DNA of 52,712 nucleotides from a virus, in the IMG/VR virus record IMGVR_UViG_3300021520_000236, positions 1 to 52,712 of that record; one strand, written 5' to 3'. The position numbers and the translations under genes are program-made. Shown piece after piece: positions 14,582 to 50,764 of this stretch. The notes below the pieces were generated by a model that was not told the DNA's origin, searched no databases, and was given only the letters and a program-made list of their open reading frames with translations. Each line of letters starts with the position of its first letter. Position 1 is the first letter of the stretch.

Positions 14582-15192
14582 AAACCCGCGTCCGCATCAC
14601 CCCGAAGCAGGCCGAGGAGATCCACGCGGCAACGATCAAAAACATTGTGGACAAAGTGGCAGCCGGAGGAGTCCCGACCAAACGGGAAAGCGACATGCTC
14701 AAAGCCGCCACGAAAGAGGCCCCCGAAAGAGTCAAAGGCGGGCTCATGGCAGCATCCATCTCGGCTGCCGCGGCAATGATGGATTGCTCTCCGGTGGACT
14801 TGAAGCGGGCAAAGAAAAACGGAGCCCCAGGCTTTCGGTCCAACGGGAGCGTGTGCATCTCGGAACTTCGGCCTTGGTTGGACGAAAACCGGGACGCACT
14901 TGGAGGTGATGAGAAGTCCTCTCTCGAATGCCGCCGCCTCCTAGCCCAGTGCGAAAAGCTGGAATTCCAGAACGAGGTGGAACGGGGAACCTACACGCAC
15001 AACGACCTCCTACGAGAACAGGGAATGCGGATCGGAGCGGCAACCAGATCCGAACTCCTGCGATTCAAGGCCGATGTTCCGACATGGGAAGGACTGCCGG
15101 CCGCCGAAATGGAAAGACGGGTATCAACCTTGAACGATTCGATATGCAAATCCCTCAATGACGCCCTCTCGAAAATCTACGCCAAGCCATGA
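14578..15192 (+). CDS. Terminase small subunit (Nu1-like)
   Basis: A 204-residue protein. A Nu1-type winged HTH segment, MDCSPVDLKRAKKNGAPGF followed by SVCISELRPWLDENRDAL, is in the middle, and a helical C-terminal part follows. It precedes the GpA-type large terminase with ATGA overlap, the lambda gene order. It would recognise the packaging site, possibly nearby, and recruit the motor. Confidence 0.75.
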   Translation: MKTRVRITPKQAEEIHAATIKNIVDKVAAGGVPTKRESDMLKAATKEAPERVKGGLMAASISAAAAMMDCSPVDLKRAKKNGAPGFRSNGSVCISELRPWLDENRDALGGDEKSSLECRRLLAQCEKLEFQNEVERGTYTHNDLLREQGMRIGAATRSELLRFKADVPTWEGLPAAEMERRVSTLNDSICKSLNDALSKIYAKP

Positions 15193-17033
15193 GCGCGGAG
15201 GCACTGATTGATTCTTACGCGGCTGCATGGGAACCGGAAGACCGCCGCCCAGCCTGCGAGTGGGGAGCGGAATTCGTGAGACCTCCACAGTCGGCAAGGT
15301 CAAGCCAGTTTGACGTTTCGGCAACTCCTTGGCTACGCGATCCGATAAACTTGATTCCAGACAACCGATTCAAGGAGATTGTTTTGATCATGCCGACCGG
15401 AGCGGGAAAAACGACCGTGTTTGATGTTTCAATTGCCCGCGCGATTGATACCGACCCCGGCGGAATACTTCTCACTTTACAAAACGACGTTGAAGCCGAC
15501 GCCTATTGGGAGGAACGGCTGATCCCGATCATTGACGGAATCGACAAGTTGCGCCGGATGATTCGCGGGCTCCCGCGAAATAAGCGCAAGCGCGGGTTTA
15601 TCGCCTTTCCCCACATGACCCTCTATTGCAGCTCGGCCAAATGGAAGGCGCTTCAAAGAAAATCTGTCCGATATGTTTTCCTCGATGAAGCCTGGATGAT
15701 GCCTCACGGTTTCATCGGCGAAGCCCGCGCCCGCACCCATGACTGCTGGAACCAGCGCGTTGTCATCGTCTCGCAAGGTGGAACGCGCTTCGTCGAACGC
15801 AACGGGGAAATCGTCCTATCCGAACTCGAAGAGGCATGGTCGCGGACAGACCGGCGCGAGTTCTCGATGGTGTGCCCCGAGTGCGGGCACGTTGAAGCAT
15901 GGAAGCACGCAAACCTCTGCTGGGAGAATGCCGAGACACCCGACGGCGAGATTGACGAAAAGGCCATCGTGGAAAGCGCCCGCTACAAATGCCCCGGCCC
16001 ATGCGCGACCGAGTTCCCAGACAAGCCAGAAGTGCGGCGACAGTTGGCGCAAAGCTCGATCTATGTGCCGACCAACGACCGTGCCCTTCCGAAGCACGCC
16101 GGGTTCCACGTCCACGGATATGCGCTTTACTACGTCCCATGGGGCGAGCGTGCATTGCGGTGGAAGCGCGCGAATGTTGCCAAGCGGCTTGGTGATTTGG
16201 AGAAACTGAAAATCCTCATCCAAAAAGATTTTGCAGAGTTCTGGGAGGAAACCGAGCACAGATTCAGCGGGTTCAAGTCAGACGCGCCGCCATCTGATTT
16301 CGTGATTGTCGAGAACAACGACCGCTTTCCCGGACTTCCCGCCGGATTTCCTTGGGAAGACGAATACCAGCGTTTCCTCGTGGCTGACTACCAGGAACTC
16401 GACGGCAAGTATTTCGTCGCGGTGGCCGCGGCATTCAGCAAGAGCGGGATTCCGAAAATCCTCTGGGCTGGCCGGCTGAACTCAGCCGACGACCTCCGCG
16501 CGAAACAGATCGAACTCGGGATCAGCGGCCGGCGCGTCGGGATAGACTGTGCCGACAACACGCCCGACGTGAACGCGATTTGCAGCAAATTCGATTGGCT
16601 GGAACTCTTGGGGAGCGACCGGAAGGATTGGCCGCACACGAAAGGGAGGCAGGTTTTTTACCAGCCGTGGAGCAGGCCGGAACGGATCGGCGGCGTGCGC
16701 GACGCCTGCTGGCGGGCATCATGGAGCAACGACTACTTCCACGACCTTCACGCCCAGAAGCTCATGGGTGGGCCGCTGGCCTACAAAGTGCCGGGAGACA
16801 TCGAGGACATGGCCGCTTACGTTGACCCAGCGACCCAGAAGCCGACCGGATTCTGGCCACAGATGAGGGCAAATCAAAAAGTGATGCGCGAGAACAAGGA
16901 TACCGGCAGAAAGGTTTCCAAATGGATTCGCATCGGAAAACGACCGGACCACTACCGCGACGCGCTCTGCATGCTCAACGTCATGGCCGGAATCGGCGGA
17001 TGTCTGGGACACACGTTTGAGAGGGAGAAATGA
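15189..17033 (+). CDS. Terminase large subunit, GpA family
   Basis: A 614-residue packaging motor and nuclease, close to lambda gpA (641). TPWLRDPINL precedes Walker A MPTGAGKTT (residues 68-76) and Walker B YVFLDEAW (162-169). A zinc-like cluster CPECGHVEAW with CPGP-C follows. The nuclease region includes VADYQE and GIDCADNTPDVNA, and the C-terminus ends in HYRDALCMLNVM. It packages DNA into proheads built from the downstream genes. Confidence 0.93.
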   Translation: MSAEALIDSYAAAWEPEDRRPACEWGAEFVRPPQSARSSQFDVSATPWLRDPINLIPDNRFKEIVLIMPTGAGKTTVFDVSIARAIDTDPGGILLTLQNDVEADAYWEERLIPIIDGIDKLRRMIRGLPRNKRKRGFIAFPHMTLYCSSAKWKALQRKSVRYVFLDEAWMMPHGFIGEARARTHDCWNQRVVIVSQGGTRFVERNGEIVLSELEEAWSRTDRREFSMVCPECGHVEAWKHANLCWENAETPDGEIDEKAIVESARYKCPGPCATEFPDKPEVRRQLAQSSIYVPTNDRALPKHAGFHVHGYALYYVPWGERALRWKRANVAKRLGDLEKLKILIQKDFAEFWEETEHRFSGFKSDAPPSDFVIVENNDRFPGLPAGFPWEDEYQRFLVADYQELDGKYFVAVAAAFSKSGIPKILWAGRLNSADDLRAKQIELGISGRRVGIDCADNTPDVNAICSKFDWLELLGSDRKDWPHTKGRQVFYQPWSRPERIGGVRDACWRASWSNDYFHDLHAQKLMGGPLAYKVPGDIEDMAAYVDPATQKPTGFWPQMRANQKVMRENKDTGRKVSKWIRIGKRPDHYRDALCMLNVMAGIGGCLGHTFEREK

Positions 17034-17415: not shown

Positions 17416-17493
17416 TGCCAGGGTGGAGAAGTTGGTTATCTCGCCAGCCCCATAAGCTGGAGATCGCAGGTTCAAATCCTGCCCCTGCAACCA
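17416..17493 (+). tRNA. tRNA-Met (CAT), CCA encoded, irregular acceptor stem
   Basis: Anticodon arm CCAGC-CCCATAA-GCTGG with anticodon CAT at 17451-17453, D arm GAGA...TCTC, T arm GCAGG-TTCAAAT-CCTGC and an encoded ACCA end. The 3' acceptor strand CCCTGCA needs TGCAGGG, but the 5' strand reads TGCCAGGG, an extra C that must bulge. The anticodon stem lacks the GGG/CCC of an initiator; it could be elongator Met or lysidine-modified Ile2. It lies between TerL and gpW, inside the late operon. It may be a functional phage tRNA or a decaying attachment remnant. Confidence 0.7.
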
Positions 17494-17508
17494 ATCGCCC
17501 AGCGCCAA

Positions 17509-17528
17509 TTTTTTGACACCATGTCAAA
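17509..17528. promoter_or_regulatory. Palindromic copy of the recurring TTTGACACC motif
   Basis: TTTTGACA-CCA-TGTCAAAA is a perfect 8-base inverted repeat (about 17511-17529) just before the gpW start. The left half is the motif TTTGACACC that recurs at 17278, 19376, 19883, 23589 and (as TTTGACACA) 30001, mostly 12-40 bases upstream of late-gene starts. TTGACA resembles a -35 box, but no consistent -10 follows, so the role is open. Confidence 0.5.
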
Positions 17529-17531
17529 AGC

Positions 17532-17783
17532 GTGGCTCTTCCATCCGGTTTATTTGAATTTTTCACGCTCGCGCAGGTTCAGGCGATCCATGCCAAAGCC
17601 GCCGCGATGCTTGCCGAGGGGAAGACCGTAATGAGCTGGTCCGGGGAAGGCAAAGGCGGCGGGAAACAGTTCACAATGCCGGTTGATCAGGTTCTTGCAG
17701 AGTGCAACTACCGACTACGGCAACTCACCGGCAATCCTATTGTCCGCAGGGTTAAAGCAGACTTCAGCAAAGGAGTAAGATGA
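17532..17783 (+). CDS. Head-tail joining protein, gpW-like
   Basis: Eighty-three residues from GTG. TLAQVQAIHAKAAAMLAEGK, SWSGEGKGGGKQFTMPVDQ and LAECNYRLRQLTG follow the gpW pattern of helix, beta hairpin and helix (68 residues in lambda). It lies between terminase and portal, exactly where lambda W lies. GTG at 17532 is the only start after an in-frame stop at 17514. It would plug the portal after packaging. Confidence 0.75.
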   Translation: MALPSGLFEFFTLAQVQAIHAKAAAMLAEGKTVMSWSGEGKGGGKQFTMPVDQVLAECNYRLRQLTGNPIVRRVKADFSKGVR

Positions 17784-19375
17784 AAGCAGCAACCCCTGAC
17801 ATTTCCCGAAACTGGATAGGATCAAAGGTTGATTCCATCTTCGAGACATTCGCGCCCGGCGTATACCTCAGCCGCATGAAAGCCAGGGCTGCAGCAACTA
17901 AGTTCCGCTTGAGGGCAGCTCAACCGTCCGCCGACAGGGAAATAGCCCGGCGCGGTCCACATCCGAACTCCGCCCTCACCATGCGGGATGCAGTTACGCT
18001 GATGTTCGAGGCTCGCGACCTTTCCGAAAATGTCGGATTCGTAAAAGGTCACCTCCGAAAAGTTCAGCTTTACGGAGCCGGAACTCTCTCCTACGAGCCA
18101 GAGACCGGAGATGCGGGAATGGACTCAGAAATTCATGGCTTCATGGAGAATTTCAACGCGACCGCCCATGTTGGCGGGGAGCACACACTCACACGGCTAA
18201 TCCAGTTGGCGCTTGTCGGAATGACCCGCGACCGTGACAGCCTGCTGGTATTCTGCAGAGATGACGATAATTCTTTGAAGCTACAGCTCGTTGAAGCCGA
18301 CCAAATTGGCGAGTTGTTCAGCTTCGTTAATCGCGAGAATTACATCCAAGGAATCTACATGGATGGACCTCGCAGGGCTGGATACCACATCTATGACAGG
18401 ATCGGAGACTTGCAGTATGCGAACGGGCAAATTATCCCGTCGCACGACGGGGTTTTCTTTTACGACCCGCTCCGCGCATCGGTGCGCGGAATCACGGCAT
18501 ACGAGACCTCGATCCAAAACATCCGCGATAAATTCGAGATCCTTGGATACGAAAAAATCATCGTCAAAGACATCTCCACCCGTGGCGTAATCACCTACAC
18601 GCAGACCGGGCGGGCTGATGAGTTCGACTATGACGACACGCAGACCGGGGCCGACGGGAATGTTTCCTTCATTCAGCACAAGGAAAGCGGAGTGCAGGAA
18701 TACCGTGGGGTAGGGGAGCGGTTCGAGGTTGTGCAACACAACCGTCCGAGCCCGACCTTTCAGGGCTTCATTAAGACGCTTGACCTAGAAGATTGCCAGG
18801 GCTTAAACCTGCCTTATGGGTTCCTTGTTGACCCGAGCGACGTTGGCGGGGCCTCCGTCCGTTTGATTGCCCACGTCGCCAATCGTGAGTTTGAGCGCAT
18901 CCGCAATGACATCCTCACTCCGAACCTGAACCGAATCCGCACGATTGCGCTCGCAGACGCCATGGAACGCAGGCTGATTTCACGACATAAGAATTTCAGG
19001 AACGGATTCTGGATGTTCCCGCCGCCGCCGACCGCCGACATCCAGAGGGAAAGCGACATTTCAATCAGGGAAGTCCGCTCCGGGCTTTCCACCCGCACGG
19101 GCGAATGGGCAATGCAGGGCGGCAGCTTCCGAAAGAAAGTGAAGATCCTCGCCGCCGAAGCCATCGCCCGCCGGGTTGCAGCGGCAGAAGCCACCAAGGA
19201 ACTCGCCCGCCTCGGATACCCGGAGCAGGTTGTGTTGCCGGATGAGATTTACGCCAACAGCGACAACCCGAGCCAAGACCCGGCAAATGCGGACACGACG
19301 GCCAAGCTCCCGACCGCCAGCGATGCTTTGGTCCCGTCATCTTCTGCATCCGTGGCTAAGCCCGTCGCGCCCTAG
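17780..19375 (+). CDS. Portal protein, lambda gpB family
   Basis: A 531-residue protein, matching lambda gpB in length (533). Recognisable blocks include LTMRDAVTLMFEARDLSENV, GMTRDRDSLLVFCRDDD, QLVEADQIGE, GYHIYDR and the C-terminal NPYGF-like LNLPYGFLVDPSDVGGAS. It forms the dodecameric portal at the capsid vertex used for DNA entry and tail joining. ATGA overlap with gpW. Confidence 0.9.
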   Translation: MKAATPDISRNWIGSKVDSIFETFAPGVYLSRMKARAAATKFRLRAAQPSADREIARRGPHPNSALTMRDAVTLMFEARDLSENVGFVKGHLRKVQLYGAGTLSYEPETGDAGMDSEIHGFMENFNATAHVGGEHTLTRLIQLALVGMTRDRDSLLVFCRDDDNSLKLQLVEADQIGELFSFVNRENYIQGIYMDGPRRAGYHIYDRIGDLQYANGQIIPSHDGVFFYDPLRASVRGITAYETSIQNIRDKFEILGYEKIIVKDISTRGVITYTQTGRADEFDYDDTQTGADGNVSFIQHKESGVQEYRGVGERFEVVQHNRPSPTFQGFIKTLDLEDCQGLNLPYGFLVDPSDVGGASVRLIAHVANREFERIRNDILTPNLNRIRTIALADAMERRLISRHKNFRNGFWMFPPPPTADIQRESDISIREVRSGLSTRTGEWAMQGGSFRKKVKILAAEAIARRVAAAEATKELARLGYPEQVVLPDEIYANSDNPSQDPANADTTAKLPTASDALVPSSSASVAKPVAP

Positions 19376-19399
19376 TTTTTTTGACACCCCCGCTTTCTC

Positions 19400-20416
19400 G
19401 TGAAGAAAGCGCGTCTGACATATTTTCAAGTTCTCCCCACCGGGACCGTTGACCACGACGCCGGAACGATCAAGGGCGTCTCCGTGCTTTCCATCGGCCC
19501 GGCCCTCGGCCACGGCATCACGATTGACGAGGAAGGGTTGAAACAATGTCTTGCCGCTTGCGAGCGTCGGGGAAACGTGAAGCTGATTGACCGCCACGAT
19601 GCAGAGTTCGACGGAATCGTGGGCTCACTCTCCAACTTCCGAATCGAAGGCGACCAGGTAAGGGCGGATGCCGCGCTCCTCGACACTCACCCGATGCGTG
19701 CCCGCGTGCTGGAGATCGCAACCAAGCTCGCCAGCGAATTTGGGCTCTCGATCGAATGCGACGGCAACCACGCCGACAACCCGGACGGCAAGGGAAAACT
19801 TTTCCGCTGCACCGACGTTGACGCCGTGGCCCTCGTCCCCCGGCCGGCCGCAAATAAATCGGGATTATTTTCCGCCCGCAAATTTGACACCAAGCCAAAA
19901 ACAGCAACCCGCACCAAAATGAGCAAACTCAAAACCGCCCTCGCAAACTTCGTCAAAGCCCTCAACTTGGAGGAAGGCGACCAGCTCGACAACGTGCTCG
20001 ACGCGATTGTTGAAGCCGTCCAAGAACAGCAGCCCTCGGTCGAGGACCGGCTGAAGAAGCTCGAAGAGGCGACCGCTCCGAAAGCCGAGCCGACCGAAGA
20101 GGAGAAGGCGAAACTCGAATCGGACGAAAAAGCGGCCGCTGACGAAAAGGCGAAAGCGGACGAGGACAAGATGACCGCCCTCGCCGAGAAAATCGCCGAC
20201 AGCAAGATTACCAAGTTCACCGCCGAGATCGGCATCAGGCGTGCACCCGGCAGCGGGGCGGGATTCGTCGCTACGAACGATTCCAAGACCTCCTTCGAGA
20301 CGGCAATCAAAACCCAACTCGAGGCCGGCGCGAAAGACCGCCCGACGGCAATCGCCCGCCTCGCGAAAGACAAACCGGAAATCTACAACGACGCCCGCGC
20401 AAAAGGCCTTTTCTAA
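19400..20416 (+). CDS. Prohead protease with fused scaffold
   Basis: A 338-residue protein from GTG. The N-terminal part resembles phage prohead proteases, with a possible catalytic histidine in IDRHDAEFDG and serine in EFGLSIECDG. An alanine/lysine/glutamate-rich coiled-coil region (about 205-265) follows, typical of scaffold. The architecture parallels lambda C with Nu3 nested inside. It precedes decoration and capsid genes. TTTTTTTGACACC lies 12 bases before the start. Confidence 0.75.
   Translation: MKKARLTYFQVLPTGTVDHDAGTIKGVSVLSIGPALGHGITIDEEGLKQCLAACERRGNVKLIDRHDAEFDGIVGSLSNFRIEGDQVRADAALLDTHPMRARVLEIATKLASEFGLSIECDGNHADNPDGKGKLFRCTDVDAVALVPRPAANKSGLFSARKFDTKPKTATRTKMSKLKTALANFVKALNLEEGDQLDNVLDAIVEAVQEQQPSVEDRLKKLEEATAPKAEPTEEEKAKLESDEKAAADEKAKADEDKMTALAEKIADSKITKFTAEIGIRRAPGSGAGFVATNDSKTSFETAIKTQLEAGAKDRPTAIARLAKDKPEIYNDARAKGLF
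19921..20416 (+). CDS. Nested scaffold protein (internal start, same frame)
   Basis: An in-frame ATG at 19921 (SKLKTALANFVKALNLEEGD) would give a 164-residue scaffold made of the C-terminal half of the protease polypeptide. Support: the upstream TTTGACACC motif (19883) otherwise seen before gene starts, the start of a low-complexity scaffold-like region here, and the lambda C/Nu3 precedent. No Shine-Dalgarno is visible, but neighbours lack one too. Confidence 0.55.
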
Positions 20417-35309: not shown

Positions 35310-35741
35310 TCCCAGCATCCTCCTGCGCCATGTCGCAAGCAGCCGCAAGGAACATGATCGCCGCTTTGTGCTGGCCGTCCTTGTTGGCGATGGTCGCGCA
35401 GGAAATGGCCGATGACAGAATTTCTTGTCCGGTGACCTTGGCGCGACCTTTGATGATCTCCTCAACCTGCTTGCGTTCTTCCGGCCAGCGAGTGCCGTAA
35501 AGGTCGCGCATGGTAGGTGTCCCTGACCGCCGACGTTCTGCATATAAGAATTGTGTTCCTCGCGTGGTTTCCCAAAATGTTGTTCCGCGCATTTTCGGCA
35601 GTAAAATTCTCCGCAATAGAGGCACCGATACGCGAATCGAAGCCCTATCGTCTTGCCGCAATGACACGTTACATGTGCTCCCATGATTCCTGCTTGTAGG
35701 AACTGCGCTGCTACCCTTTCCCGTTTTGATGAAGTCGGCAT
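35154..35741 (-). CDS. Zinc-ribbon protein, C-terminus probably run-on
   Basis: Starts at 35741; CHCGKTIGLRFAYRCLYCGE-FYCRKCAEQH is a clear treble of cysteine pairs binding zinc. After YMQNVGGQGH, encoded by the half attC-like site at 35514-35542, the frame runs a further 110 residues of arginine/serine-rich text antisense to the lysis gene. Other cassette genes stop within their site, so the natural stop was probably lost by deletion or frameshift near 35.51 kb. Only the first 75 residues are likely ancestral. Confidence 0.5.
   Translation of the reverse strand: MPTSSKRERVAAQFLQAGIMGAHVTCHCGKTIGLRFAYRCLYCGEFYCRKCAEQHFGKPREEHNSYMQNVGGQGHLPCATFTALAGRKNASRLRRSSKVAPRSPDKKFCHRPFPARPSPTRTASTKRRSCSLRLLATWRRRMLGLNPLPSSRRQYRRMQPERLARIRIQVYPAFIRDVGACRHCVLKKTDNLFPV
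35290..35511 (-). CDS. Hypothetical protein at the end of the cassette array
   Basis: Seventy-three residues (RDLYGTRWPEERKQVEEIIK; AAIMFLAAACDMAQEDAG). It starts a few bases after the surviving half of an attC-like site, and its stop overlaps the convergent lysis gene by 20 bases. The coding frame differs from the zinc-finger gene that reads through the same DNA, so only one of the two is likely real here; this one has better coding character. Confidence 0.55.
   Translation of the reverse strand: MRDLYGTRWPEERKQVEEIIKGRAKVTGQEILSSAISCATIANKDGQHKAAIMFLAAACDMAQEDAGIKPTPK
35514..35542. repeat. Half attC-like site F
   Basis: CCCTGACCGCC (35521-35531) followed by GTTCTGCA (35535-35542) matches the GTT-side half of the five complete sites (CTGAC core, then spacer and GTT box). 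No complementary AAC half is found within 150 bases to the left. The site appears truncated at the junction with the left prophage. Confidence 0.6.
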
Positions 35742-35852
35742 TTATCGTGTGGGCTTGAGAAGCAGGACCACGAGCGTCCAGAAGATCAGGAAGAGGCTCC
35801 AGTCTATCGCGTGCAGGAGCTTCAAGGCTTCGGTGATTTGTTCCGGCGTCAT
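35742..35852 (-). CDS. Small membrane protein
   Basis: Thirty-six residues: TPEQITEALKLLHAIDWS then a transmembrane segment (LFLIFWTLVVLLL) and KPTR. The stop overlaps the zinc-ribbon start (TAAATG), which supports translation. Function unknown. Confidence 0.55.
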   Translation of the reverse strand: MTPEQITEALKLLHAIDWSLFLIFWTLVVLLLKPTR

Positions 35853-35853
35853 A

Positions 35854-36072
35854 CTACGAAGAGAATTGCAGGATTCCGTCGATCAGCAGGAACGGTTGCG
35901 CCCACCATTGATCTTGGTTTCGATCCAAGAACGTGTGGCCGTCGGCCTTCATCTGCTTGTGGGTTTCGTTGAGGTAGTCCGGCCTATAGGTGGCGCTGGT
36001 CGCGCATCCCGAAATGCAGAACAAGGCGAGGCAGCTAATCGCCGCCAGCCCGGTGTTGAATTTACGTTTCAT
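35854..36072 (-). CDS. Small lipoprotein (cassette gene)
   Basis: Seventy-two residues with a lipoprotein signal (AAISCLALFCISGC) and a mature part YRPDYLNETHKQMKADGHTF. Unusually for this region it has a good ribosome binding site (AAAGGGAAC) and a 90-base leader after attC-like site B. Envelope-located; function unknown. Confidence 0.65.
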   Translation of the reverse strand: MKRKFNTGLAAISCLALFCISGCATSATYRPDYLNETHKQMKADGHTFLDRNQDQWWAQPFLLIDGILQFSS

Positions 36073-36161
36073 TTTACGAGTTCCCTTTCACTGTTTTTGG
36101 TTGTGCCGCGTCGGGCGGCGATTGCTGCTCTTAATTATTTTTGCATGAGCGAAAAATATCT

Positions 36162-36252
36162 TGAGAACAAGGCCGTTCAGAGAACGGCGGGGCGACACAA
36201 CTTTCGATTTCACGCCTCATCCTCCCGCCGTCCCTGACGGCCAGCGTTCGCA
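36162..36252. repeat. attC-like site B
   Basis: Left box TGAGAAC (36162-36168), right box GTTCGCA (36246-36252). Between them GGCCGT-T-CAG...GGCGGG pairs with CCCGCCGTCCCTGACGGCC, with an unpaired T at the 16th base (36177). Length 91. The gene at 36210-36470 ends inside this site. Confidence 0.8.
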
Positions 36253-36470
36253 GAATATATGCGCCCCCTACGGACTCCTCGCGGGTAGATCAGCACGATT
36301 TTTGTCGGCATGAACTCCGCGTTTAAGGGCAGCCATTTCCGGCTTTTGATTTTGTGGGCACCGTAAACGTGCCAGTGATTCGGTCCCATTTGCAGAGGCT
36401 CGCCCCAGAAAATTCCGGCATCCTTCCAGCGGCGCATTGTTTCCGGCCCGTTGGCTCTGATGATCCGCAT
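36210..36470 (-). CDS. Cassette gene, hypothetical
   Basis: Eighty-six residues (MRRWKDAGIFWGEPLQMGPN; KSRKWLPLNAEFMPTKIVLI), ending SANAGRQGRREDEA. The ATG at 36470 lies 13 bases after attC-like site A, and the stop lies in site B, the normal cassette arrangement. A longer frame from 36545 would begin inside site A and is less likely. No family recognised. Confidence 0.65.
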   Translation of the reverse strand: MRIIRANGPETMRRWKDAGIFWGEPLQMGPNHWHVYGAHKIKSRKWLPLNAEFMPTKIVLIYPRGVRRGRIYSANAGRQGRREDEA

Positions 36471-36483
36471 TCTTGAAATATCG

Positions 36484-36604
36484 TGCGAACAATCCGGTGC
36501 AGGAAATCGCTGGCCGGTGGGTGTTGAGATGGAGCGAGTCGTCATATCAGTGTGTTTTCGGTTCCGCCGTGCCAGCCAGCGATTTCTGACCGGCAGCGTT
36601 CGCA
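36484..36604. repeat. attC-like site A
   Basis: Left box TGCGAAC (36484-36490), right box GTTCGCA (36598-36604), perfectly complementary. CCGGT-G-CAG-G-AAATCGCTGGC pairs over 19 bases with GCCAGCGATTTCTGACCGG, leaving two extrahelical G residues, the first at base 16 (36499). Length 121 with a long variable loop. Confidence 0.88.
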
Positions 36605-36858
36605 GGAATATCCTCCGGTTCGTAGGTCGCAGCGAAGATGTCTGGCTTGCACGGATAAAACTCTCCCTTCACTCCCTTGATGATCCAGTCGCCAATAGAT
36701 GCTGTCATTACGCCTTCAAGAGTTGGAATAAACACGCCTTGCGTGTCGCTGAATGCGATGTGTTCAAGCCCCATGAATGCAAGAATTTCTGATCTGCTAT
36801 CGGTGGTTCCGTTGTATTGGATTGCTTCGATGACTACTGGTTTTTTGCGGTATCTCAT
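36547..36858 (-). CDS. Conserved phage hypothetical protein (cassette gene)
   Basis: A 103-residue protein beginning RYRKKPVVIEAIQYNG with TLEGVMTASIGDWIIKGVKG and EFYPCKPDIFAATYE, a widespread small phage protein family of unknown function. It begins about 27 bases after attC-like site E and ends in site A with the tail PANAAGQKSLAG. This shows that ordinary phage genes are carried as cassettes. Confidence 0.82.
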   Translation of the reverse strand: MRYRKKPVVIEAIQYNGTTDSRSEILAFMGLEHIAFSDTQGVFIPTLEGVMTASIGDWIIKGVKGEFYPCKPDIFAATYEPEDIPANAAGQKSLAGTAEPKTH

Positions 36859-36884
36859 ATTATTGGTTGCGGGTTAAAAATCAC

Positions 36885-36937
36885 TGCGAACAAGTCAGTG
36901 GGCCGAATCCTTCGGATCGGCCACTTTTGCGTTAGCC
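36885..36937. repeat. attC-like site E
   Basis: Left box TGCGAAC (36885-36891), right box GTTAGCC (36931-36937), central hairpin AGTGGGCCGA...TCGGCCACT with one unpaired G. The shortest site, 53 bases. The gene at 36895-37257 stops within it. Confidence 0.75.
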
Positions 36938-37257
36938 AAAATATCGCGGAGCCTGTATATGACCGCCGCCGTGGGTTCCGCATCCTTCCAGAGCGGCGTT
37001 TCCCATCGGTCAACCACGGCTTGCGCGGCCATCTCCACTTCCTCCAGACGCTCGGCATGTTGCCAAAGATTTTCCCTGAGTTTATTGTTTTCCGCGATCA
37101 GTTCCCGAACCCGATGGACTACCGAGTGACCGGGGGCAATCGGCGTTCCGATAGCCTCCGCAATTTGCTGGAGATGTTCCGCGAAGCGTGTCCGCATTTC
37201 ACGCGCGGCAGAATACGCGGATTGTAGGTCTTTGTGGTCCGGATATTGAGAGTTCAT
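36895..37257 (-). CDS. Coiled-coil hypothetical protein (cassette gene)
   Basis: A 120-residue helical protein (SAYSAAREMRTRFAEHLQQI; ELIAENNKLRENLWQHAERL), ending RDILANAKVADPKDSAH where it runs into attC-like site E. It overlaps the preceding gene by ATGA, so two genes share one cassette. No family recognised. Confidence 0.65.
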   Translation of the reverse strand: MNSQYPDHKDLQSAYSAAREMRTRFAEHLQQIAEAIGTPIAPGHSVVHRVRELIAENNKLRENLWQHAERLEEVEMAAQAVVDRWETPLWKDAEPTAAVIYRLRDILANAKVADPKDSAH

Positions 37258-37664
37258 TCCTTTTCCTCCAAGAGCAGATGCAGGATATACTGTTCCTCCC
37301 CCATGATCTTTTGGCAGAGTTTGTCGCAGTCGAGTTGGCGCGAGTGCCTGAGATCAGATCCAGCCTTCGCTTGCTCCTTGAGTTTTGCGGCGAGCGCATA
37401 CGCCTCATTCAGATTCTTGAGGTTGGCGACATGGGTTCTGATTCGCTGGTCCATCAAGGCCAGCTTGCCCTTGTAGATCGGCGGGAGTTTCGAGATCAGG
37501 CCGGTGATTGACAGGTATTGATCCCATGCGTCGTCTCCGGTCCTCCATTGCATTTCGCAGGATGCCGTTGAGCGGAATCCTTTCGGGGTCCGCTTCATCT
37601 TTTGCACGGTGATTATCAGTTTGTCCCGCATGTCGGCGGGGTTTTCGTCGGGTGTCAGTTTCAT
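37254..37664 (-). CDS. Hypothetical protein (cassette gene)
   Basis: A 136-residue protein (KLIITVQKMKRTPKGFRSTA; HVANLKNLNEAYALAAKLKE). The ATG at 37664 lies 8 bases after the box of attC-like site C. A P22-like accessory function cannot be assigned; no family recognised. First gene of a two-gene cassette. Confidence 0.65.
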   Translation of the reverse strand: MKLTPDENPADMRDKLIITVQKMKRTPKGFRSTASCEMQWRTGDDAWDQYLSITGLISKLPPIYKGKLALMDQRIRTHVANLKNLNEAYALAAKLKEQAKAGSDLRHSRQLDCDKLCQKIMGEEQYILHLLLEEKE

Positions 37665-37671
37665 AAAAATT

Positions 37672-37737
37672 GGCTAACAATGTGGTGCAGGAGAATGGCT
37701 CCGCTTCGCTACGCCATCCCTGACCACTGCGTTAGCC
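37672..37737. repeat. attC-like site C
   Basis: Left box GGCTAAC (37672-37678), right box GTTAGCC (37731-37737). GTGGT-G-CAGG(AGA)ATGGC pairs with GCCATCCCTGACCAC; an extra G stands at base 16 (37687). CTCCGCTTCGCTACG forms the tip. At 66 bases, with TAACAA at the start and GCGTTAG at the end, it closely resembles classical resistance-cassette attC sites. Confidence 0.9.
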
Positions 37738-38015
37738 TTATCGTGGTGACTCACCAGTATTGCGTGCTCCTTGTCGGCGTTGGTCACAATCTCTCGTAGT
37801 CTGTCGTTTCCCCACCTTAACTCCGGCCCGAGGGTGGCAAGTGTTCCGTCCACACCGCTGATGTAGTATTGCACATCCCCACCATACAGCCCGTAGTGGA
37901 TTCTTTCTTGCAAATCCACAGGTAGAGCGGCTAACAGCCCATCCACCGAATCCTCACCCGTGCGGGCTTGGGGTGGTGGCTGCGTTTCAGTTTCGTTCGA
38001 TGTCGTAGTTTGCAT
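37674..38015 (-). CDS. Hypothetical protein (cassette gene)
   Basis: A 113-residue protein (VDGLLAALPVDLQERIHYGL; LRWGNDRLREIVTNADKEHA), ending ANAVVRDGVAKRSHSPAP inside attC-like site C. Its start lies two bases from the stop of 38017-38730, so it is the second gene of that cassette. No family recognised. Confidence 0.65.
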   Translation of the reverse strand: MQTTTSNETETQPPPQARTGEDSVDGLLAALPVDLQERIHYGLYGGDVQYYISGVDGTLATLGPELRWGNDRLREIVTNADKEHAILVSHHDKANAVVRDGVAKRSHSPAPHC

Positions 38016-38016
38016 A

Positions 38017-38730
38017 TTAGTCTTTCTTTGGGTGAGGATCGGTGATGGTGATGTTCGGCCTACGGCAGCGGATGCCTTTGGTGACAGTAGGCCATGGCAA
38101 GTAGCAAAGCTCTTTTAGAAGCCGGAAGTTCTGGCATACATCCCGCCATTTTCCATCCCAGCGGACCTGATCGCCTTCCTGCAACTTTGTGCCGGGTTCA
38201 AGCTCGTTGGGATCGCGTTCAGAGTCGAAGTGTTTGCCGCATCCGCCTTTGTCTTTTTGGCAGTAGTGCCCGAAGTAGTGAGTTCCATCGAAGTCGATGT
38301 CTCTGGTCCATGTATAGACGTGTTCCTTGCTGTGGCATTGCGGGCACGATATGGCCGAACATGCGATGGAGCGAACCACAGGCCGCTCGGGAGTTTCATT
38401 TGGATTCATAGGTTTTTCTTTCTGCGGCCCGTGGCCGCTCATCTGGTCGTTCGACAAAATACCGCGCACTTCCGAGAGCGGAATGTCGCTGCCTTTCCCA
38501 GATGAGATATGCACCGGAAACGCCCGATTTGAGAAGTCCATGAGACATCCCTTTGAGCAGATGTCCCAATCCTTTTGCCGGTTTAGTTCCACGAGTTGCG
38601 TTGAGCCTCCATGTTCCTTCAGCGAATACCAGCCGGAGAACGGATGCCCTCCGATCCAGCCGGAGCCTTCGTCGGTGACTTCCTTCCCGCAGACATCGCA
38701 TTTCAGAATTGTTGATTTTCGAGTTGCCAT
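38017..38730 (-). CDS. Multi-cysteine zinc-binding protein (cassette gene)
   Basis: A 237-residue protein with two metal-binding parts: N-terminal LKCDVCGKEV and DICSKGCLMDF, C-terminal SCPQCHSKEH, HYCQKDKGGCGKHF. The ATG at 38730 lies 7 bases after the box of attC-like site D. The halves resemble separate phage zinc-finger proteins and may be a fusion. Function unknown. Confidence 0.68.
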   Translation of the reverse strand: MATRKSTILKCDVCGKEVTDEGSGWIGGHPFSGWYSLKEHGGSTQLVELNRQKDWDICSKGCLMDFSNRAFPVHISSGKGSDIPLSEVRGILSNDQMSGHGPQKEKPMNPNETPERPVVRSIACSAISCPQCHSKEHVYTWTRDIDFDGTHYFGHYCQKDKGGCGKHFDSERDPNELEPGTKLQEGDQVRWDGKWRDVCQNFRLLKELCYLPWPTVTKGIRCRRPNITITDPHPKKD

Positions 38731-38736
38731 AAAAAT

Positions 38737-38838
38737 GTCGAACCAAGTCGTCCAGCGAACCCCTACCCGCCAGACGGTTGTTTTTGATTTTCGGGATTCT
38801 CGCCAGCGGGCAGGGGCCGCTGACGACCGACGTTCGAC
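38737..38838. repeat. attC-like site D
   Basis: Left box GTCGAAC (38737-38743), right box GTTCGAC (38832-38838), perfectly complementary. GTCGT-C-CAGCG...CCCCTACCCGC pairs with GCGGGCAGGGGCCGCTGACGAC; the extra C is at base 16 (38752). Length 102. The gene at 38763-39260 ends inside it. Confidence 0.87.
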
Positions 38839-39260
38839 AAAATATGGGATGCGATTTCGTTGACCTCACCGCAGGAAAGGCAGTCCTCGTGGCATCCTGC
38901 GTAGGATTCCGTTTTGATCTTTTCCATCGCGGCGCGAAACTGGCCGTTTCGTTTCCAGTGCCGGTCGCGTTGTGCGAGAGTTGCGATCAGGTCCGCTTCG
39001 AGCTTGTCCCCGGCATTGATGAGCCTCGCGTTCTCGGCGGCGAGGTTGTCGCGCTCTTTCCTGTCCTCATCGCGAATAATTTCCCCATCGCGCCACATGT
39101 TCAACTCGGTTTCGATGGAGGCGTTCTCGGATTCAACCTTGTAGTATTTCGCAACGATGTCTGCGGCGGCGAGCAATGCGGGGACCTTCCCTGCCAGCGT
39201 TCCTTTTTTGAGCGTGGCGGCTAGCTCGCGCAGGGTGGTTTCGGTTTGGTTGGTGGTCAT
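38763..39260 (-). CDS. Coiled-coil hypothetical protein, first gene of the array
   Basis: A 165-residue protein with a central coiled coil (ERDNLAAENARLINAGDKLE) and ESYAGCHEDCLSCGEVNEIA. Its C-terminal HILSNVGRQRPLPAGENPEN is encoded by attC-like site D. Its start is not preceded by an attC-like site, so it is either fixed to the helicase operon or follows an unrecognised insertion site. Confidence 0.65.
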   Translation of the reverse strand: MTTNQTETTLRELAATLKKGTLAGKVPALLAAADIVAKYYKVESENASIETELNMWRDGEIIRDEDRKERDNLAAENARLINAGDKLEADLIATLAQRDRHWKRNGQFRAAMEKIKTESYAGCHEDCLSCGEVNEIASHILSNVGRQRPLPAGENPENQKQPSGG

Positions 39261-39320: not shown

Positions 39321-40841
39321 CTATAATAACTTTGCTGGTTCCGGTTTCGTGTAGATCGGGTTGTATCTGTTGAGCCTTCCCCGGATTATCACCCTGTCTC
39401 TTTCGGCCTTTGCGAGAGCATCGTAGGCGACGGACTTCCCGCATCCGGTGAGGTCTTTGATCTTGTAAAGGAGTTCTGTTCTCGTGATCTGATCCTCGAA
39501 AAGATCGGCAACGTCTTGGCTTGAAAGTGCGGCCTTTTTATTCCCTGGCGCTTTCTTTTCGAGCCCTACGGACTGCCGGAACTCCTCCGGGTCGAAGTCG
39601 GGGTTAATCCGGTAGATCCCAACTTCCTCATCAAGCATCACGCCCATCTCCGGGAACTGTGCGCCGTTGTTGTTCTTCCCGCATGCCATTACCATCAGGC
39701 GCGGGTTGTCCGGGTCTTGAGGTGCCAGGTTCACCTGTGCACGGGTCCATGCGTAGAGAGCTTTTGAGTTGCGCCCGAAAGATGATTTGTCCCATCCTAC
39801 GGCCTTTGCGGCTCCGAGTTTTCCGGTAGCCGAGTGATGCACGACGACAGGGACACGCTGCGGGTTCCCCTTCTTGACCGCCCGAGAGAGAGCTGTAACA
39901 ACCTGCTTCATGTCACGGTCGTTGTTCAGTTCCAGACTGGTGAAGGTATTGAGCGGATCGAAACAAACGAAGTGCGGGTCGTGGTCGGCAATCGCTTGCT
40001 CGATATGCCGGATCTCGTCAGTCTCCAAGTCGAGGAAGGTATCTTCGTCCTTCTCTACCGTGTGGATGACAAAGCAGTCGTCGATAAGAAGCGTATCCTC
40101 TTTTTGAAATCCCAACCCTCTCACCATCTTGGTGATGTCAGTTTTTAGGCGGCGGTTTGAGTTCTCCGTTTGGAATACGAGCCACTTCTTCCCGCGAGCG
40201 TGTGTTTCAATCCCGAGGAACGGGCGCCCGGTTATCATGCAAAAAGCTAGCTGCATGAGGAGTCTGCTTTTCCCGATCCCTCCGGGGCCGAGGATCGTTA
40301 CCGGCTGGCTGGCGGCGATGATCCTATCCCCGAAATAATTGTCGGACTCGTCGAAGTCCATATTCACGAGTTCTGTAATCGTGCGGATGGACAGGCGGGA
40401 CTTCTTGCTTTTTACCGTGTGGTTGAGCTGCTTGAAGTTCAGCGCGATCTCTGTCGGGTCTTCGCCCTTCTTCACCGCTACTTGGATTTGCTGTGAGACG
40501 GTCGAGTTGTGCGCGTTGACCTTGTGCTTCCAGAGGGTTTCGCAATATCCCTCGAAGACTGCCGGGACCGAAGACTGCCCCTCGTTTATCAGGGCATCCG
40601 CGATGGCCTGGTTCACCTCCGGGGAGCCGCCAGCAAAGAAGCTCGCGATGGAAAGGTAATCGAATGTCTCCCCGTTCTCGTGCCGCCTTGCAAGTTCTGC
40701 GAATACCTGCCGGTAATGGTCCGCGACGAACGATTCGGTAGTGACCTCGTATTTGTCAACGATTCCCCAGCGGTCTTTCCCTGACAGGAGCCCGGCGAGG
40801 ATGCCGAGTTCGGCGGCTTGTGTCGGCCAGTTGTTCTTCAT
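39321..40841 (-). CDS. Hexameric helicase, RepA/DnaB-like (AAA_25), right module
   Basis: A 506-residue protein: DnaB-N-like start (ELGILAGLLSGKDRW, DHYRQVFAELARRHENGETF), RecA-like core with Walker A GPGGIGKS at residues 185-192, PHFVCFDPLNTFTS as Walker B, VPVVVHHSATGK, and a C-terminal winged-helix segment (TRTELLYKIKDLTGCGKSVA). It replaces the DnaB-type helicase of the left module. It is the main replication gene of the right module. Confidence 0.87.
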   Translation of the reverse strand: MKNNWPTQAAELGILAGLLSGKDRWGIVDKYEVTTESFVADHYRQVFAELARRHENGETFDYLSIASFFAGGSPEVNQAIADALINEGQSSVPAVFEGYCETLWKHKVNAHNSTVSQQIQVAVKKGEDPTEIALNFKQLNHTVKSKKSRLSIRTITELVNMDFDESDNYFGDRIIAASQPVTILGPGGIGKSRLLMQLAFCMITGRPFLGIETHARGKKWLVFQTENSNRRLKTDITKMVRGLGFQKEDTLLIDDCFVIHTVEKDEDTFLDLETDEIRHIEQAIADHDPHFVCFDPLNTFTSLELNNDRDMKQVVTALSRAVKKGNPQRVPVVVHHSATGKLGAAKAVGWDKSSFGRNSKALYAWTRAQVNLAPQDPDNPRLMVMACGKNNNGAQFPEMGVMLDEEVGIYRINPDFDPEEFRQSVGLEKKAPGNKKAALSSQDVADLFEDQITRTELLYKIKDLTGCGKSVAYDALAKAERDRVIIRGRLNRYNPIYTKPEPAKLL

Positions 40842-49227: not shown

Positions 49228-49346
49228 GGATGCAGTCAACCACACTTCCTAAAAGGAATCAAGTTGAATCAAAAACGGGAAATGCCGTAAATATCCGCCG
49301 TAACTCATCCGGCATAGATTCACAATCTCTTGATTATGAAGGGGAG

Positions 49347-49419
<73 letters not shown>

Positions 49420-49651
49420 ATTTGCCGGATTCCCTCTGTAGATTGATCCGGTTTCGGTGTCAACGAGATTTTTCACCGAGGCGATTTGACCCTCTATGGC
49501 TCTGTATAGAATTTGAGGTTGCCACCCCTCCGTGCCACCCCAATTCGCAAGAAACACGGTGGGGGGGGCCGATTTCCAGATTTCCGAAGAAAAATGGAAA
49601 AAAGATGGGGGCGAGGGGGTTGACATTTTCGGGTTTCCAATCAGTAGGGGC

Positions 49652-50764
49652 ATGAAAAGAAAATCATGCACACAGTTGACCGGACTCTCCCGAAAGAAAA
49701 CCGGAATTTACCAATACCGTCCACAAGTCAACGGGAAGAGGACGGCATTCTCTCTCAGGACAAAAGATTTCGAAGAGGCGATACACAGGGCACTTCTGAT
49801 TAAGGATACGACTCCTGTGCAGACCAAGGATAGTCTCCTTTCGCTTGTTGAGGAGTTCGTCCGGTTCAAAGAAAACAAAGGCAAGTTCAGTCGGTTCAGC
49901 GTTTCCGACAAATACGGTATGCTCAAAAGATTCGCCACCTTTTGTGGTGACAACATTCCGGTTGGGAGCATGAATCCGAAAAAAATCGGTGAGTTTTTTG
50001 CCGATTGCGAGAATCGCTCTTTGGCGCAATCTACCTTGTCAGGCTACAAAACCAACATTCAGAGCTTTTTTTCGTGGTGCAACGAGGAAAAACGACTGCA
50101 TGTTCATCATTTTATATCAGCGTTAAAAGAGTTCGAATTTGTGTCAGAGGCGAGGACTGATTACATCCCACAGTCGGAAATCAATCGCCTCTTAAATGAA
50201 TGTGACGACGAGGTTGTAAAATACGTGCTGATCTGTGGTGCCTTTCTTGGAATGCGAAAAAACGAGATCATTGAGTCAAGGCGGGAGTGGTTCGATTTTG
50301 ATCGTCAAATCTGTCGTGTTCAGAATTGCAATGCGAAAAAGGCGCAAGCTGAAAGCCTTGATCTGTTTCGCGTGAAAAACAAAAAAGAGAGGGATGTTCC
50401 GATCATTCCCGAATTGCAGGAATGGTTGGCGAGGTTTGTTGAAGGGAAAGAATATTGTCTGGCAAGTGGAAAAAGGCGCGGGAAATCAAAGTATCGCTTC
50501 AACTACGAGAAGAGGTTCAAGACTTTTCTAAAAAAGAAAGGGATGCTACATGTTTCAAGCCACACACTGAGGCATTCATTTGCTACAAATCTAGCAATAG
50601 GGAATGTTCGGATTGAAAAAATAGCTTCAATGCTAGGGGATTCGATCAAAACAACAGAAAAACATTACGCGAGGTTTATCCCAGACCAATCATCAGTAGG
50701 AATTCTATCGTTGGGACTTGTGACTCAGGAATCTCCTATTGAATCAGATAGTTGGAGCATCTAG
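49652..50764 (+). CDS. int: Tyrosine recombinase (integrase 2)
   Basis: A 370-residue recombinase: arm-binding N-terminus (SRKKTGIYQYRPQVNGKRTA), SAM-like core-binding domain (FADCENRSLAQSTLSGYKTN), catalytic R in FLGMRKNEI, SSHTLRHSFATNLA and LGDSIKTTEKHYARF. ATG 49652 follows AGGGG; the frame is open 120 bases further upstream. DNA is clearly more A+T-rich than the prophage, so it belongs to another element extending to the right. No integron-integrase-specific insert is seen. Confidence 0.92.
   Translation: MKRKSCTQLTGLSRKKTGIYQYRPQVNGKRTAFSLRTKDFEEAIHRALLIKDTTPVQTKDSLLSLVEEFVRFKENKGKFSRFSVSDKYGMLKRFATFCGDNIPVGSMNPKKIGEFFADCENRSLAQSTLSGYKTNIQSFFSWCNEEKRLHVHHFISALKEFEFVSEARTDYIPQSEINRLLNECDDEVVKYVLICGAFLGMRKNEIIESRREWFDFDRQICRVQNCNAKKAQAESLDLFRVKNKKERDVPIIPELQEWLARFVEGKEYCLASGKRRGKSKYRFNYEKRFKTFLKKKGMLHVSSHTLRHSFATNLAIGNVRIEKIASMLGDSIKTTEKHYARFIPDQSSVGILSLGLVTQESPIESDSWSI

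Follow-up and report, generated by a model that had tools for sequence, protein, structure and literature searches.

Probable integron-type gene cassettes, opposed in direction to their attC sites, at the end of an early operon in a tailed prophage

The window, i.e. the whole stretch of DNA analysed here, is the IMG/VR record IMGVR_UViG_3300021520_000236, 52,712 bases in length. Family matches reveal a terminase, a portal and a capsid, and the element is therefore a tailed prophage. Terminase, portal, protease, capsid and tail genes are on the plus strand; helicase and exonuclease genes are on the minus strand. An array of attC-type sites occupies the junction between the minus-strand early operon and the end of the plus-strand late module. 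Two tyrosine recombinases are encoded, at positions 1279–2343 and 49532–50764. The host phylum is probably Verrucomicrobiota, as related terminases are found in 15 of 289 Verrucomicrobiota genomes and the best cultured match of the phage is Verrucomicrobia phage P8625. No relatives of the helicase or of one cassette protein were found in viral or bacterial contigs.

Two covariance models were used to delimit the sites. Model R1 was built from 25 bacterial sites; its seed pattern, derived from sites B and D of the window, was scanned against 257 Gb of bacterial and archaeal genomes, plus viral contigs. The bacterial matches to this pattern include many attC-like hairpins. R1 is partly circular because its seed pattern is that of sites B and D. 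Model R2 removes the circularity: its attC sites come from the vicinity of integron integrases in Verrucomicrobiota and were collected in a scan that left out the window. R1 and R2 are related models that together found all of the sites, and phage attC of other types may therefore behave differently. The features, with model scores where these apply, are as follows.

15189–17033, plus strand: terminase large subunit (family match)
35514–35542, plus strand: half site, right arm only (CTGACCGCCGACGTTCTGC), at the left end of the array
35854–36072, minus strand: small lipoprotein-like open reading frame, seen by eye; no family match; start inside the decayed site at 36016
36016–36144, plus strand: decayed attC-type site (R2 21.4 bits, E=1e-3)
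36162–36252, plus strand: attC-type site A (R1 E about 5e-7, R2 E=1.1e-5)
36210–36470, minus strand: cassette gene without a known family; site A encodes its tail NAGRQGRREDEA
36484–36604, plus strand: attC-type site B (R1 E=1e-7, R2 E=1e-4)
36547–36858, minus strand: cassette gene, phrog_419; tail NAAGQKSLAGTAEPKTH encoded by site B
36885–36937, plus strand: attC-type site C, short (R1 E=1.5e-4, R2 E=4e-3)
36895–37257, minus strand: cassette gene of no family, the second in a two-gene cassette; site C encodes its tail NAKVADPKDSAH
37254–37664, minus strand: cassette gene of no family, first of two in the same cassette
37672–37737, plus strand: attC-type site D (R1 E=2e-8, R2 E=1.4e-4)
37674–38015, minus strand: cassette gene of no family; tail NAVVRDGVAKRSHSPAPHC from site D
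38017–38730, minus strand: fused open reading frame, two cassette frames joined in frame via the decayed sixth site
38354–38455, plus strand: decayed sixth attC-type site (R2 E=1.5e-4, R1 13 bits)
38737–38838, plus strand: attC-type site F (R2 E=1.4e-9, R1 E=1.5e-5)
38763–39260, minus strand: gene upstream of the array; C-terminal tail NVGRQRPL... encoded by site F
39321–40841, minus strand: DnaB/AAA-type replicative helicase of the early operon, which has the array at its 3′ end

The preliminary description had reported five inverted repeats of attC type and one half site. All six are present on inspection, and R1 and R2 recover the five repeats (A, B, C, D and F) at the same coordinates, all on the plus strand and with significant scores. 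In the 52.7 kb, R1 matches other than these five have E values of at least 0.7. R2 gives E=1.4e-9 to 4e-3 for the five, finds two more, and has its next best match at E=0.2. The earlier count was correct for the five and the half, but two decayed sites (36016–36144 and 38354–38455) had been missed; in all, seven sites are found in 2.8 kb, plus the half site. An Rfam search of the window returned tRNAs only, and a narrower site pattern had no matches in viral contigs.

The sites have the architecture of attC, with an imperfect hairpin, outer and inner boxes, and unpaired bases in one arm. As first described, the left 7-base outer boxes end in AAC, the right ones begin with GTT, and a base lying 16 nt from the left end is unpaired. 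Site C is the exception in that its outer boxes, TGCGAAC/GTTAGCC, do not match each other and are chimeric: the left box pairs with the right box of site B, and the right box pairs with the left box of site D. This mismatch is attributed to cassette exchange. The half-site box GTTCTGC pairs without mismatch with GCAGAAC, the left box at 36016, where the left arm is clear and the right box is degenerate. Window boxes GTTCGCA, GTTAGCC and GTTCGAC depart from the R′ consensus GTTRRRY; the consensus is not strict, however, since sites adjacent to integron integrase (IntI) genes also show GTTCGGT and GTTCGCA. With at least two attC sites close together and no IntI above the cut-off in the record, the array is a CALIN, and the original account of a cluster without integron integrase in a prophage is supported. 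The intI gene and attI site that stand beside the array in a complete integron are absent from the window.

Gene calls in the array are open reading frames, a subset of which is backed by family matches. The genes are on the minus strand and the attC sites on the plus strand, so that the canonical same-direction arrangement is not seen. Stop codons fall inside all five intact sites, as had been noted; e.g. site A holds the stop of reading frame 36210–36545, site B that of 36547–36858, site D that of 37674–38015 and site F that of 38763–39260, all on the minus strand. Starts lie just past the left arms, 7 nt beyond site D (ATG 37664) and 6 nt beyond site F (ATG 38730). Close spacing applies also to the gene after site B, but as 13 nt (ATG 36470) and not the 90 nt first given. 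The cargo is phage-type, as had been proposed: phrog_419 is frequent in phages, and the homology covers residues 1–84 of the 103 in the 36547–36858 product.

In integron arrays, a cassette begins with a box that matches the left box of its terminal attC. The two match because both come from one circle, and boxes within one site need not match. In the window, four of six neighbouring cassette-end pairs are perfect, i.e. the R′/R″ complementarity of cassettes is present. A wider sample comprised 80 sites in 19 viral arrays from 18 records, taken from a merged viral list in which some sites are weak (<20 bits) and backed mainly by box matching. Perfect matches were found in 36/60 cassette-end pairs compared with 17/281 unrelated pairs (p=5e-20), and within single sites in 11/80; box matching carries no information on polarity.

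Contigs L020 and L024, which belong to another phage, show a natural cassette loss. They share 3,962 bp at 100% identity, a stretch that runs through a site. L024 then lacks 1,075 bp of L020, resumes at L020 position 5037 and is identical for a further 105 bp, after which the contig ends. The join is exactly at G/TTCG, and the absent 1,075 bp correspond to two cassettes, one with a Dam methyltransferase. L024 keeps the hairpin of the first site, which places the crossover at the right arm. The affected gene ends ...EDGPN-AGGQRP vs ...EDGPN-NSLSGP in the L020/L024 pair, both in frame. Borders away from the GTT boxes in related contigs would have spoken against cassettes; the L020/L024 difference is at G/TT.

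Contig L088 is from a relative of the window phage, with exonuclease and ATPase 76–89% identical. Its three sites flank other genes (RusA and two without known function), and homology with the window array is limited to the sites; one of them is 80% identical to 38354–38455. The lineage does not carry the array throughout, as farther relatives (L157–L160) share the early block and have no R1 sites. From the box matches, the L020/L024 loss and the different genes around the L088 sites, it is concluded that the sites bound true exchangeable cassettes, as the first account had suggested.

In normal attC polarity, crossover occurs at the G/TT of the right arm. In IntI-adjacent arrays, 10/10 genes start 2–16 nt past the right arm on the attC strand. 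These arrays form a cleaner control set, made because the first bacterial set was impure (L076 and L078 resemble phage DNA in bacterial assemblies). In viral records, most of them contigs that are fragments, 33 of 54 sites have the ATG of a long reading frame within 40 nt past the left arm on the opposite strand, and the polarity difference from the IntI-adjacent arrays has p=3e-4. Thus a viral gene begins past a left arm and is read into a right arm. About 20 further viral records, many of them from unrelated viruses, have the reversed arrangement. In one phage record of 57 kb the sites point in both absolute directions, almost always against the local genes; L111 is mixed. The polarity call is based on R1 and R2, on the L020/L024 pair and on the unpaired base of the hairpin. 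As the hairpin retained by L024 puts the crossover at the right arm, it is the genes that are reversed, and the sites have not been misread. The assignment of the gene-facing arm as R′ was considered and is ruled out by the models, the L020/L024 junction and the IntI-adjacent arrays.

Since attC opposes the genes, the terminal (3′) part of the upstream gene contains the G/TT crossover, which falls in an AAC codon (Asn). In viral arrays the crossover triplet is an AAC codon in 54/64 long reading frames (p=5e-17), and ten of the 64 are out of frame; open-frame lengths are noisy in GC-rich contigs. A stop is found within the site in 44 of the 54 in-frame cases. Family matches end near the crossover, phrog_419 at residue 84/103 and a Dam methyltransferase at residue 139, the exact start of the site-coded tail. 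Selection may be the cause of this frame lock.

These properties suggest a scheme of exchange based on attC hairpins that oppose the direction of the genes and on a crossover codon that reads AAC in the coding strand and keeps to one frame in nearly all cases. Read in gene direction, the mobile unit would consist of the attC hairpin, a start codon, the gene body and ...AA|C. Gain or loss of a unit would join the preceding gene in frame to a new attC, from which the gene would acquire its last ~10–25 residues and, in most cases, a stop codon; the start codon of the unit itself would often be at most 40 nt from the far arm. In-frame rejoining at each swap would leave the genes readable from one operon promoter, and neighbouring cassette genes would probably be translationally coupled. 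A dead site is predicted to fuse its neighbours, and this is what is seen at 38354–38455, which has no stop in the gene frame, with the consequence that the flanking reading frames are fused. Recombination would take place on the folded strand, here the coding strand, by a host IntI acting in trans.

A host integron integrase is the most likely enzyme. IntI is found in 81/289 Verrucomicrobiota genomes, and in Cerasicoccus maritimus IntI and attC of the window type are on one contig. The L020/L024 loss at G/TT agrees with integron-integrase recombination. Within the probable host phylum and its phages, no R1 sites were found in the stretches examined of Verrucomicrobiota prophages with a related terminase, and no sites in cultured Verrucomicrobia phage P8625. 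BLAST of the sites against isolated phages gave chance-level matches only.

We consider it very probable that the window carries an integron-type cassette array at the 3′ end of its early operon and that this form recurs in many phages. One may ask whether the same cassette mechanism is instead driven by a tyrosine recombinase of the phage, given the two encoded at 1279–2343 and 49532–50764. This seems highly unlikely: these proteins score 24 and 31 bits against an IntI cut-off of 265, none of 25 viral records has an IntI above the cut-off, and IntI is known to use such sites. The array could also be a CALIN of the usual sort, one that the prophage picked up as part of a chromosomal integron of its host. 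The window sites do score with attC from Verrucomicrobiota integrons, phage CALINs have been published (PMC9892861), and the array of TJE1, a cultured phage whose attC sites are described in the same paper, has normal polarity on our check; reversal is thus not universal in phages. However, the cargo is phage-type, and polarity already disfavours capture, as all ten IntI-adjacent genes are on the attC strand whereas the window and about 20 viral records are reversed, with a fixed frame. We therefore regard this explanation as improbable.

A further view is that the repeats are RNA elements, attC-like hairpins that end genes and couple translation to the next gene and do not recombine. Stops within sites and starts just past them, the frame lock and the good folding of the coding strand would all be expected from such elements. 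Yet the box matches at cassette ends, the exact loss in L024 and the chimeric site C require recombination, and the chance that an RNA function alone explains the sites is very small. An additional RNA role alongside recombination is possible. The cassette interpretation can be carried a step further. It is fairly likely that these are widespread cassettes of the phages' own, separated by direction from the bacterial pool, in which attC precedes the gene, the crossover lies within the preceding gene at a fixed Asn codon, attC encodes interchangeable tails, and a host integrase shuffles accessory genes of the phage, e.g. anti-restriction methyltransferases, with frames intact.

The presence of cassette clusters in phages, thought new in the preliminary description, is not new: Qi et al. 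(2023; PMC9892861) reported 17 CALINs in phage genomes and found that IntI1 recombined phage attC sites, broadly of the type seen here, in an assay. Their phage CALINs resemble the window in having attC clusters without integrase and cargo that includes methyltransferases, but the paper reports no reversed polarity, fixed crossover frame or natural exact cassette loss. We found no report of reversed polarity or of a fixed frame in the open-access literature, the scope of the search (subscription papers were outside it). What looks new is the polarity of genes relative to attC. Verrucomicrobiota integrons such as that of Cerasicoccus maritimus (G027:C29) share with the window the form AAC-A(A/C)A...GTT, a bulged base in the left arm and recognition by the same models, but they have an integrase, and their genes begin on the attC strand just past the right arm. 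Orientation has also been examined in Vibrio cholerae, where attC bottom strands on the lagging-strand template lead to more excision (PMC11023631). This laboratory case is comparable in that orientation relative to replication raises excision, but there the whole array is inverted and the relation of genes to attC stays normal. By analogy, one might speculate that in phages a recombining strand that is also the coding strand is more exposed during replication.

If this interpretation is correct, phages would do more than carry host cassettes passively: integron recombination would serve them as a means of swapping genes that follows rules of its own. The reversed polarity would bear on the origin of cassettes and suggests why phage and host pools might stay apart, each being silent in the other's array. 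The system would also provide a mechanism by which phages could rapidly exchange their small accessory genes, several of them resembling counter-defence genes. Cargo elsewhere in the viral arrays includes methyltransferases, RusA and a Lar-like protein.

An exact difference of whole cassettes separates two phage contigs:

L020, IMGVR_UViG_3300001281_000112
L024, IMGVR_UViG_3300000786_000064

These are otherwise identical, and their sole difference is an exact 1,075-bp two-cassette segment, which includes a Dam methyltransferase. The array that holds this difference lies close to a terminase gene.

Relatives L157 and L158 have the exonuclease-ATPase-SSB-like block in common with the window phage (71% identity for the ATPase), and yet sites found by R1, a covariance model built from 25 bacterial attC-like sites, are absent from both. 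The array is thus variably present within the lineage of the window phage.

In the attC array of another contig, L113 (G010:C1, ~17452–19413), a 258-bp stretch is found in at least two copies at 100% identity, together with an additional 210-bp copy at 99.5%; this looks like cassette duplication. Contigs L076 and L078, which come from bacterial assemblies (Lentisphaerae and Pseudomonadota), also carry attC sites of reversed polarity; both are probably phage sequences that ended up in bacterial bins. Within site B, the loop (window 36514–36550) weakly matches a gene junction of about 90 mycobacteriophages (E 0.1–5), a similarity probably due to chance.

The window has two tyrosine recombinases, each adjoining a tRNA gene: at left in the stretch 1096–2343, beside tRNA-Asn, and at right in 49346–50764, beside tRNA-Gly. 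A tRNA-Met gene (17416–17493) is situated between the terminase and portal genes.
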